Origin: Brevinematales bacterium
GTDB taxonomy: Bacteria; Spirochaetota; Brevinematia; Brevinematales; Thermospiraceae
Direction: 5' to 3'
Assembly: GCA_026417555.1 (NCBI GenBank)
Contig: JAOADA010000003.1
Location: 1 to 64,000, forward strand
DNA length: 64,000 nucleotides
Shown: in pieces, positions 41,403 to 44,343 of the stretch
Layout of the letters: each line of letters starts with the position of its first letter
Position numbering within the stretch: position 1 is the first letter of the stretch
Program-made: the position numbers and the translations under genes
Notes under the pieces: model-generated
The model's database searches: none
What the model was told of the DNA's origin: nothing
The model's input: the letters and a program-made list of their open reading frames with translations, nothing else

Positions 41403-41431
41403 ATAATGTGAAGTTGAAAAGGAGTGTATAC

Positions 41432-43540
41432 ATGGATATTTCTTCGCTTCTCTTTGCCGTTTCTGAAGCCCTTTTTGTCAAATATAGCCGTTTTCTCGAT
41501 GAGAATCCCGGAAACAAAGAAAAACAAGCAAAGCCTGCCCTCAAGATTCCCCTCTCCTTTTACAAGAAGGCTTTCCGTATGGCGAGCAAAATCATGCCCC
41601 ATCTCACGTATGAAGAAAAAAAAGTAGTGCTTCTTCTTTTTGCTGGCATGACACATGAAAAACCCCAACACAATCTCTGGGATCTTGTGAGATTCTTTCA
41701 TAGAACTCCTACAAAGCAGCTTGAATTTCTCTCTCGTCTCCTTTCAAAAAAGCATCACCTCTATACTGACAACTGGATGATCCTTCAGGGTGGATGGCCG
41801 CCAGAAAACCAGATGGGAGAATTTTTTAGTATCCCTGATTACCTCTCTACGATCTATCATCATCGTGTGACTCTCAATGTCATAGGATATGCCAAGCTCA
41901 TCAAAAACCTTCTCCCAAACACACGATCCCCTGCCCTTCCTTTTTTTATCAAAAAGGGAAAATATACCACCCTTTCAGCTTTTTTACGGGATATTGAGAT
42001 CCTCTTTTCTCATGTAAAGTTCTACAAAACCCTGGTCAATGAGTCTCTCATAGATCCTCCCACGCTCCCATGGTTTGATGGAGAACCTTTTTGTGATATG
42101 GTGGACACTATCAAAGAGAACATGGGACTCGACGATGATACCTTTCCTATTCCGCCATATCTCCTTTATCCCTCGGTGAGTATTCTTTACACAGAAACCT
42201 TTGAAAAATACCGGGCTATGTGGGTGTTTTATTTTTATCTGGTATATCTTGTCTTCATACGTCAAGATACCCAACAGAGTGTGGATCATGCCATCCAGAT
42301 GCTTTGTATCCTACCAGAGGAAATCTCTCTCGTGTTATCCTTTTTCCAGCCTGATGGCATCTTGTGTAAAAACTCTCTCATCAAATTTGTTTCCCGTGAC
42401 TTTTTCACAGAGGAAGAGGAATCAGAAGAACCAAATCCCTTCAAAGATATCCTTTCTATCTTCTCGAAAAACTTTGAAGTCAATAGAGACGATTTTTACA
42501 AACTGATCAACTTCTTCCTCGATCGCAATGAAGCTCTTAAAGAGAGACTGACAAAGCATATCCCGCCTATCAAAGAACAGGAAAAAACCCCAGAAGAAAG
42601 TTCCTCCCAAATTGACCTCGACTGGCTTTTTGATACCTCCTCAAAAGAAACAGAACCCATACAAAAAGAAAACACCACATCCGTCATCACCGTCGAGAAA
42701 AAGGAAACCCTCTATGAGATTATCAAACCCAACATCAATCTCAGCAAGATTATTCTCGACGAAGAGGTGAAACAGGAGCTTCTGAATGCCGTAGATATGA
42801 CGAAGACAATGAAGGTGTTAAAAAAATGGGGGGTGAAGCCTTCTTTGGCACAAAAAGAAGCCTCTTCTGTGAAAATTCTTCTCTATGGTATCTCTGGTAC
42901 GGGGAAAACCATCACGGCTCAAGCCCTTGCGGGTGAGGCACATGCCAAACTCTTCAAGGTAGATGCTGCAAACCTGGTGAGTTCTTTTGTAGGTGAATCT
43001 ACAAAGAACGTGAAAAGGGTGTTTGAGGAGTATTATAACTATGTGAAAAGCTCCAAGGAGACAGTCTTTTTCTTCATTAATGAGGCAGACCAGCTTCTCA
43101 GTTCTCGAGGGATGATCCATCAGGCAGCGGACAAAGAATACAACCAGATGCAGAATCTCCTCCTTGAGGAAATAGAGAACTTTCAAGGGGTATTCATTGC
43201 CACCACCAACCTCATTGAACTCTTTGACGTGGCATGGAACAGACGTTTCAACATCAAGATACGGTTTGATGTTCCTCGGTATGAGACACGGCTCAAACTC
43301 TGGCAAGTCCATATCTCAGAAAAAATGCCTCTCGCTTCAGATGTCAATCTGGAAAAACTGGCTGAATATGAACTGGCCGGGGGATCCATTGCCAATGTGG
43401 TATATAACGCTGCGAGAAAGGCAGCAGCCCGAACCGGAAGTGAGCAGGTGATTACCCAAAAAGATTTTCTTGATGCTATCGACAAGGAGATGAAATCTAT
43501 CCTCGGACTCTCCTCCAAAAAGGTGGGATTTAATCGATAG
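41432..43540 (+). CDS. AAA-family ATPase with long uncharacterised N-terminal region
   Basis: 702 residues from ATG 41432 (AAAAGGAG upstream). Residues about 1-430 are helical with no domain I recognise, and end in an acidic, Gln/Glu/Thr-rich linker. The AAA module follows: Walker A GISGTGKT near residue 490; Walker B FFFINEAD, in which the usual Asp-Glu is Asn-Glu; sensor 1 GVFIATTN; the arginine-finger region WNRRFNIKIRFDVP; and a small C-terminal helical lid (GGSIANVVYNAARKAA). Such single-AAA proteins usually form rings that remodel proteins. It is cotranscribed with the 43549 gene, eight bases downstream. Confidence 0.85.
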   Translation: MDISSLLFAVSEALFVKYSRFLDENPGNKEKQAKPALKIPLSFYKKAFRMASKIMPHLTYEEKKVVLLLFAGMTHEKPQHNLWDLVRFFHRTPTKQLEFLSRLLSKKHHLYTDNWMILQGGWPPENQMGEFFSIPDYLSTIYHHRVTLNVIGYAKLIKNLLPNTRSPALPFFIKKGKYTTLSAFLRDIEILFSHVKFYKTLVNESLIDPPTLPWFDGEPFCDMVDTIKENMGLDDDTFPIPPYLLYPSVSILYTETFEKYRAMWVFYFYLVYLVFIRQDTQQSVDHAIQMLCILPEEISLVLSFFQPDGILCKNSLIKFVSRDFFTEEEESEEPNPFKDILSIFSKNFEVNRDDFYKLINFFLDRNEALKERLTKHIPPIKEQEKTPEESSSQIDLDWLFDTSSKETEPIQKENTTSVITVEKKETLYEIIKPNINLSKIILDEEVKQELLNAVDMTKTMKVLKKWGVKPSLAQKEASSVKILLYGISGTGKTITAQALAGEAHAKLFKVDAANLVSSFVGESTKNVKRVFEEYYNYVKSSKETVFFFINEADQLLSSRGMIHQAADKEYNQMQNLLLEEIENFQGVFIATTNLIELFDVAWNRRFNIKIRFDVPRYETRLKLWQVHISEKMPLASDVNLEKLAEYELAGGSIANVVYNAARKAAARTGSEQVITQKDFLDAIDKEMKSILGLSSKKVGFNR

Positions 43541-43548
43541 GGGTTACC

Positions 43549-44343
43549 ATGAGTTGGGTTTTGGTTGGGGGACTCGGGTATGAAAGAGAGCTCTGGGAAC
43601 GATTAGAGAAACCCTCTTTCAAGGTTGTAGGAACAGCCTATCTTTTGGCTACAGAGTCTTTCTCCCCTGCTCCCTGGGCAGAGGTAGCTTTTGCTGAGTA
43701 CCTCACCCACAACTATGCCGGCCTTGTAGCAGAGTCAGAGGGAATCCTTCATCTCTCCCAGAGTCTCTTCTCCTGTTATCTTGCCATGGATCTCGCCCTT
43801 GCCTACCATAACCCCGCCTGGATTTTTCTTCCCGGAAAGCCCTGGAGACTTTTCTTCCTCTCGGAGAAAGAAGGGGGATGTCTTGGATGTGTGGAACCGT
43901 ATCACTCCCCTCCTCCAGCCCTGGTATGGGAGAGGTTTTCCCTTGATTGGTTTGATACTCTCGCTGCCCATTGGAAGACCCCTCCTCATCAAAGTACCCT
44001 CTGGGAGGGAAAAAAAACATACCCACTAGAGAAAAATCCCCACTGCCCCCTTCATCGCAAAGAACAACCTTACCTCTCAGGAAAAGAACAATTGGTCGTT
44101 GCTGTCTCCTGTGGAGAAAATTCTGTTGCCATCACTCCTTCGTTTGAGAAAAAGATAGATCTTTCAGTATATCAAGAGATGATTCGGCCCTTTGTCCGAA
44201 TCCGAAAAACCAATCCCTTCTTCCTAGAGATAGAATACGAACGTTTCCTCTGTCTGGTTTTTCGGCAAGGAAGGTTCATCGTCAAGGGAACGAAAGAAAA
44301 AAACACAGCGCTTTTTCTCTACCGGCAACTTGTGGGAGTATAA
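43549..44343 (+). CDS. Degenerate ThiF/MoeB (E1-like) protein, putative
   Basis: 264 residues. The C-terminal part resembles E1-like adenylyltransferases: a zinc-knuckle-like GGCLGCVEPYHSPPP (about 109-123), a second pair CPLH instead of CPXC (about 168), and a terminal segment CLVFRQGRFIVKGTKEKNTA with LYRQLVGV, close to the usual end of MoeB/ThiF relatives. The N-terminus VLVGGLGYERELWERL could be a decayed nucleotide-binding loop. The catalytic Arg-rich NLXRQ segment and paired Asp residues of active E1 enzymes are not seen. I infer a non-adenylating pseudo-enzyme working with the AAA ATPase upstream. The assignment is moderate at best. Confidence 0.5.
   Translation: MSWVLVGGLGYERELWERLEKPSFKVVGTAYLLATESFSPAPWAEVAFAEYLTHNYAGLVAESEGILHLSQSLFSCYLAMDLALAYHNPAWIFLPGKPWRLFFLSEKEGGCLGCVEPYHSPPPALVWERFSLDWFDTLAAHWKTPPHQSTLWEGKKTYPLEKNPHCPLHRKEQPYLSGKEQLVVAVSCGENSVAITPSFEKKIDLSVYQEMIRPFVRIRKTNPFFLEIEYERFLCLVFRQGRFIVKGTKEKNTALFLYRQLVGV

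Follow-up and report, generated by a model that had tools for sequence, protein, structure and literature searches.

An AAA ATPase with an Asn-Glu Walker B motif is encoded next to a degenerate, MoeB/ThiF-derived pseudo-E1 protein in Brevinematia

Here, we describe a gene pair of Brevinematia in which a classical-type AAA ATPase with Asn-Glu at the Walker B position is encoded directly upstream of a protein that descends from MoeB/ThiF-type E1 enzymes. As far as its sequence can tell, the second protein is a pseudo-E1 rather than an active adenylating enzyme. The pair was analysed in a stretch of 64,000 nucleotides from a Brevinematales bacterium (contig JAOADA010000003.1), referred to below as the window, and represents a lineage-specific pairing of two known protein kinds, one of which is strongly degenerate. 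We tentatively propose that the ATPase is a slow AAA remodeller and that the pseudo-E1 serves as a non-catalytic adaptor or scaffold, which docks via its C-terminal domain.

Results

Both open reading frames that had been claimed for positions 41432-44343 of the window are present on the forward strand. The first (41432-43540) encodes the 702-residue ATPase, starts with ATG at 41432 behind a ribosome-binding site (AAGGAG at 41419) and ends with a stop codon at 43538-43540; an alternative start is possible at GTG 41408. The second (43549-44343) begins 8 nt past this stop codon and encodes the 264-residue pseudo-E1. As read from the sequence, glycosyltransferase-type genes lie upstream of the pair on the opposite strand, and tRNA-Phe, rpmH and rnpA are found downstream. 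Between the window and its nearest relative synonymous sites are saturated, but the two proteins are still 79% and 72% identical, which indicates that neither is a chance ORF.

The AAA module of the ATPase begins at about residue 425-435 and extends to residue 690 (425-690, positions 42704-43501), in agreement with the N-terminal part of roughly 430 residues in the original prediction. Pfam AAA (PF00004) matches residues 482-613 with an E-value of 2e-25 and 90.1 bits against a cut-off of 21.2, and Walker A, Walker B, sensor 1 and the arginine finger all lie in this one module, with the Walker B Asp replaced by Asn. Walker A is intact (GISGTGKT, residues 486-493, 42887-42910) and the sequence FFFINEAD takes the place of the usual DE, both as first read, with Asn550-Glu551 at 43079-43084. 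Sensor-1 Asn593 and an RRF arginine finger (604-606) are also present. Across eight aligned orthologues, no variation occurs in the Walker A residues (G486 and SGTGKT, 488-493), Asn550, Glu551, the sensor-1 Asn or RRF; V698-G699-F700 in the C-terminal tail KKVGFNR (43517-43537) is likewise invariant. The nearest solved structures are those of Cdc48/VCP-like, Vps4, FtsH and proteasome ATPases. A Gly-Phe tail resembling that of the window ATPase, KKIGF, also ends a 1028-aa protein in genome G036 (L051:8864-11950), which combines an N-terminal region with two Asp-Glu AAA modules.

Between the window ATPase and its nearest relative, identity is 97% in the AAA module versus 67% in the N-terminal 424 residues (41432-42703). 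This fast-evolving and mainly helical N-terminal region has no match among Pfam or PDB sequence families and is limited to nine Brevinematales genomes among 393 Spirochaetota genomes. The AlphaFold model of the ATPase is mostly of low confidence (pLDDT 65, pTM 0.40). Confidence rises to 74-90 for residues of about 41-120 and 261-320, which have a similar helix/strand order; within this moderate-confidence part, the stretches of about 60-119 and 261-320 run helix-strand-helix-helix-strand, as in a winged helix, and residues of about 369-425 resemble a disordered linker. A comparison for internal repeats was not significant (E 0.02, probability 2%), and the winged-helix family PF22977 is matched by none of the N-terminal regions of these ATPases. 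Tandem winged helices in this region are a lead from the model only.

The Asn-Glu Walker B had originally been taken as a mark of this pair, a claim that has to be given up. Four further AAA proteins with NEAD, two in the window genome and two in a sister genome, have no E1 gene nearby; two of them have IGF as their last residues, and in the other two Gly-Phe comes close to the C-terminus. NE-type AAA proteins are also known from plasmids of Campylobacterota and Bacteroidota, again without an E1 beside them, and those of Aliarcobacter, Prevotella, Segatella and Chryseobacterium combine LLFNEAD with Gly-Phe at or near the C-terminus. Asn-Glu as a unique signature is thus ruled out by its occurrence in paralogues and other phyla. 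AAA relatives from contractile injection systems have DE at Walker B. A single clade of NE ATPases is compatible with a tree test (p-AU 0.152), and a single origin of the NE Walker B is neither shown nor rejected. These comparisons show that the window ATPase is a classical-type AAA ATPase, kin to widespread and apparently uncharacterised bacterial ATPases with NE and a Gly-Phe tail.

Several arrangements of NE-type genes were seen in passing. A tandem pair of further NE-type AAA ATPases with different N-terminal regions is encoded in G000 (C30:3-3021, L049) and in G002 (C54, L050:7968-10782). The G002 pair precedes a DUF2201 metallopeptidase/VWA-like gene and a MoxR-like AAA gene, and the G000 pair adjoins mltG-like and flagellar (flhF, flhA, flhB, fliR-like) genes on the opposite strand. 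On a Chryseobacterium plasmid (L125:2117-3789), the NE ATPase is annotated as two neighbouring genes, an N-terminal part and an AAA part, which may reflect a frameshift or genuine gene fission.

Structure prediction supported an E1-derived fold for the second protein. Its AlphaFold model has a pLDDT of 93.6, and a Foldseek search of the PDB gave 23 matches at E <= 1e-3, all of which are E1 enzymes, led by ThiF (1zfn, 2.7e-6), Uba4, MoeB (1jw9) and UBA5. At the sequence level, Pfam ThiF gives no match to the window protein up to an E-value of 1, and the sole clear match to a curated family is to NF009123 (MoeB/ThiF) with E 8e-12 at residues 164-263, which bears out the earlier reading that the C-terminal segment of ThiF/MoeB was kept; its 45.1 bits fall short of the curated cut-off for membership of 510. 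The same C-terminal segment was found by tblastn in Bacillus and Priestia MoeB/ThiF proteins encoded beside molybdenum-cofactor genes. In profile comparisons with E1 families, the relatives of the pseudo-E1 match real E1s at the strand of the catalytic Asp. The C-terminal part of the ATPase-linked copies matches the extensions of real MoeB/ThiF proteins with an hhalign probability of 98.6%, and the N-terminal part matches real E1s with 45% in the linked group and 95.5% in the unlinked f5 group. Taken together, this shows that the second protein descends from MoeB/ThiF-type E1s with a C-terminal extension, of which it has kept the fold and the C-terminal domain.

The chemistry, on the other hand, appears to be gone. 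Of the motifs expected of an adenylating enzyme, only the Gly-rich loop (GGLG) remains in the window protein; the DxxxxxNLxRQ segment with the arginine finger, the lysine, the Asp of TDN and the catalytic Cys are all lost in the alignment, and with them the residues required for adenylation and for sulphur or thioester chemistry. The loss of the adenylation motifs had been predicted, and because of this loss we regard the protein as a pseudo-E1. Its zinc knuckle (43879-44055) was only partly as first described: its position is kept, but C111-x2-C114 (CLGC, 111-114) and C166-P-L-H169 (CPLH, 166-169) make up a CCCH rather than a CCCC set, and the ligands, kept in most pseudo-E1s, are lost in the relatives G007 and G008.

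The C-terminal domain (44038-44340) contains an invariant Cys188 and the motif KGTKEKNT (246-253). Among ATPase-linked copies, 41% of residues 231-264 are invariant, as compared to 5-20% elsewhere, and KGTKEKNT is identical in all five linked proteins even though their overall identity falls to 31%; unlinked copies have not kept it. The conservation of this region makes it the best hint of a partner-binding surface. As a separate observation, the domain (44116-44340), also in the MoeB/ThiF proteins of L104/L105, shows the strand/helix order of one TBP repeat. TBP models match it weakly (E 0.04-0.25) and TBP is absent from the 50 best Foldseek matches of the pseudo-E1, so that half of a TBP fold is a lead only.

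The survey covered 393 Spirochaetota genomes, including families f1-f5 of Brevinematia. The pseudo-E1 adjoins the ATPase on the same strand in all five genomes of f1 (three) and f3 (two), the two genes being separated by 8, 9 and 1 nt or, in two cases, sharing a 4-bp ATGA stop/start overlap. These pairs sit in four different gene contexts: as read from the sequences, they are flanked by glycosyltransferase genes and rnpA in the window and G002, aroE in G001, genes for a zinc-ribbon-type protein and plsC-type gene in G004, and membrane-protein genes in G007. The predicted linkage therefore stands for f1 and f3, but not throughout. The ATPase is present and a pseudo-E1 not detectable in the four genomes of f2, and a pseudo-E1 occurs without the ATPase in five f5 genomes and one f4 genome (G008). 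The f5 copies follow an HMGL-like gene, with an overlapping start in G013. The f2 ATPase gene (L006:4859-8195, L053, L004, L055) is preceded by an XpaC-like gene (PF10112, E 8e-22); a gene for a 122-aa lipoprotein-like protein occupies the slot of the pseudo-E1, with an ATGA overlap in L006, and is followed by purF. Other Spirochaetota gave partial matches only, of the kind given by real E1s; in G182 and G209 the E1 motifs are intact by reading, and for the others the segment matched and the length served as the guide. The pair is confined to Brevinematia within the set of Spirochaetota genomes searched, and the coupling is real where both genes occur, but not obligate. Linked and unlinked pseudo-E1s are likely of common origin, and the distribution suggests that, of the two proteins, the pseudo-E1 is the older one within Brevinematia.

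Discussion

The two outcomes on which the original prediction had staked itself, an E1-like fold and a conserved linkage, were both found. The E1 side of the pair is better supported than the sequence alone had allowed, and the ATPase side is less unusual than it first seemed. We propose that the two genes form a unit, whose products are probably co-translated. The ATPase would assemble as a ring, and could be expected to bind and hydrolyse ATP, as the catalytic Glu, sensor 1 and arginine finger are intact. Hydrolysis is probably slow, since the Asp that usually takes part in holding Mg is an Asn here. The ring might then remodel a protein substrate, which is picked through the fast-evolving N-terminal part, and the pseudo-E1 might bind the ATPase by its C-terminal domain and present the substrate. 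The cargo of the pseudo-E1 is possibly a ubiquitin-like sulphur carrier or, alternatively, a peptide, as with the degenerate E1-like proteins in thiazole/oxazole peptide synthesis. ThiS-type carriers are encoded in all linked genomes (in G000 at C22:243209 and C32:37562); however, unlinked genomes have them too, and in G008 a pseudo-E1 but no such carrier was detected, so a carrier is only a possible general ligand. Since f2 keeps the ATPase without a pseudo-E1, the ATPase does not need its partner, and since the f5 genomes and one f4 genome keep the pseudo-E1 without the ATPase, a task as adaptor cannot be its sole or original role.

This distribution also fits a second reading, a serious competitor that we consider somewhat less probable, in which both proteins act separately. 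The pseudo-E1 would be an old Brevinematia protein with a task of its own, for example the binding of a sulphur-carrier or ubiquitin-like protein, and adjacency would provide shared expression only. Such a task would suit the solitary copies of either gene, the position behind an HMGL-like gene in f5 with its overlapping start in G013, and the presence of ThiS-type carriers in most of these genomes, G008 excepted. It is harder to reconcile with a pair that persists in four contexts and two families while its flanks change, and with a C-terminal motif that is constrained solely in linked copies.

The Walker B Asn could abolish hydrolysis altogether. If it blocked productive Mg binding, the ring would be a nucleotide-dependent scaffold or switch and no motor. 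Asn550 is invariant and NE is common to several related groups, as expected of a change that is fixed and not drifting, but Walker A, Glu551, the sensor-1 Asn and RRF are just as invariant in the aligned orthologues, and no part of the protein is better conserved than the AAA module, as a working motor predicts. We therefore regard a pseudo-ATPase as unlikely. A similarly low, if anything slightly lower, likelihood is given to a more specific form of the adaptor proposal, in which a catalytically dead E1 is dedicated to an AAA ATPase and recognises a ubiquitin-like sulphur carrier or its conjugates, which would amount to a bacterial analogue of Ubl-directed unfolding with an E1 fold serving as receptor.

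It is very improbable that the two genes constitute an anti-phage defence system like IetAS. PADLOC IetA models do match the ATPase (best E 4e-33), and WYL, DUF262, HipA and nuclease genes occur in the vicinity of related NE ATPases on plasmids. The NCBIfam IteA model, however, scores 105.7 against a cut-off of 510, no better than proteasomal, FtsH and Cdc48 models; the partner is no protease and the pseudo-E1 has no PADLOC match; and the pair shows vertical conservation, its neighbours in the window being tRNA-Phe and rpmH rather than a defence island. Membership in IetA is ruled out by this score and by a pseudo-E1 in the place of the protease IetS. Equally improbable is a pseudo-E1 that retains some enzymatic activity with an altered active site: the GGLG glycines are invariant in linked copies and Cys188 in all copies, but the arginine-finger/lysine segment is deleted, the TDN Asp replaced and the catalytic-Cys segment gone, and Cys188 aligns with the LCGRDT Cys of the real E1 extension and not with the catalytic Cys.

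Returning to the slow remodeller with its adaptor, E1-fold scaffolds devoid of chemistry are known from peptide-modification systems, and we found none reported as the partner of an AAA remodeller. If the complex forms, machinery for sulphur-carrier and ubiquitin activation would once again have been turned to protein recognition. In addition, the pair lends itself to experiments on a conserved Asn-Glu Walker B, a feature present in several phyla. In the literature searched, we found nothing relevant on an ATPase/pseudo-E1 pair, on injection-system AAA proteins with a winged helix or on natural Asn variants of Walker B, and no measurement of the effect of such a variant on ATP hydrolysis.

Each half of the pair has recognisable kin. 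The pseudo-E1 resembles extended MoeB/ThiF proteins (NF009123/PRK12475; Bacillus WP_017417685, Priestia WP_129542530) in its E1 fold, in the position of the zinc knuckle and in a C-terminal domain of roughly 85 residues that carries the motifs C-G-x-x-[ST] and F-x-x-GR-x-x-x-x-GT. In contrast to these, the window protein is about 75 residues shorter, has CCCH zinc ligands and lacks DxxxxxNLxRQ, the lysine, the TDN aspartate and the catalytic Cys. The ATPase resembles the plasmid NE AAA proteins (WP_151029513, WP_237827847) in the NE Walker B (LLFNEAD in the plasmid proteins), the RRF finger, Gly-Phe near the C-terminus and an N-terminal region, of about 300 residues in the plasmid proteins, whereas the AAA modules are 35-38% identical, the partners of the plasmid proteins are HAD, WYL or hypothetical genes, and homology of the N-terminal regions is not significant (E 0.0045, probability 8%). 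Contractile-injection-system AAA ATPases (Aureibacter, Haloferax) have a related AAA module, and a related Nostoc plasmid ATPase carries the PF22977 winged helix. The injection-system ATPases differ in their Asp-Glu Walker B and injection-system neighbours; such genes were found neither on reading through the window's long ORFs nor next to the orthologues. A functional parallel to the proposed adaptor is offered by the TOMM E1-like proteins, E1-fold binding scaffolds, which bind the substrate for an ATP-dependent enzyme (PMC10634744). Their partner is a YcaO enzyme and recognition occurs via a winged-helix RRE, which was not recognised in the window pseudo-E1; here, the partner is an AAA ATPase.
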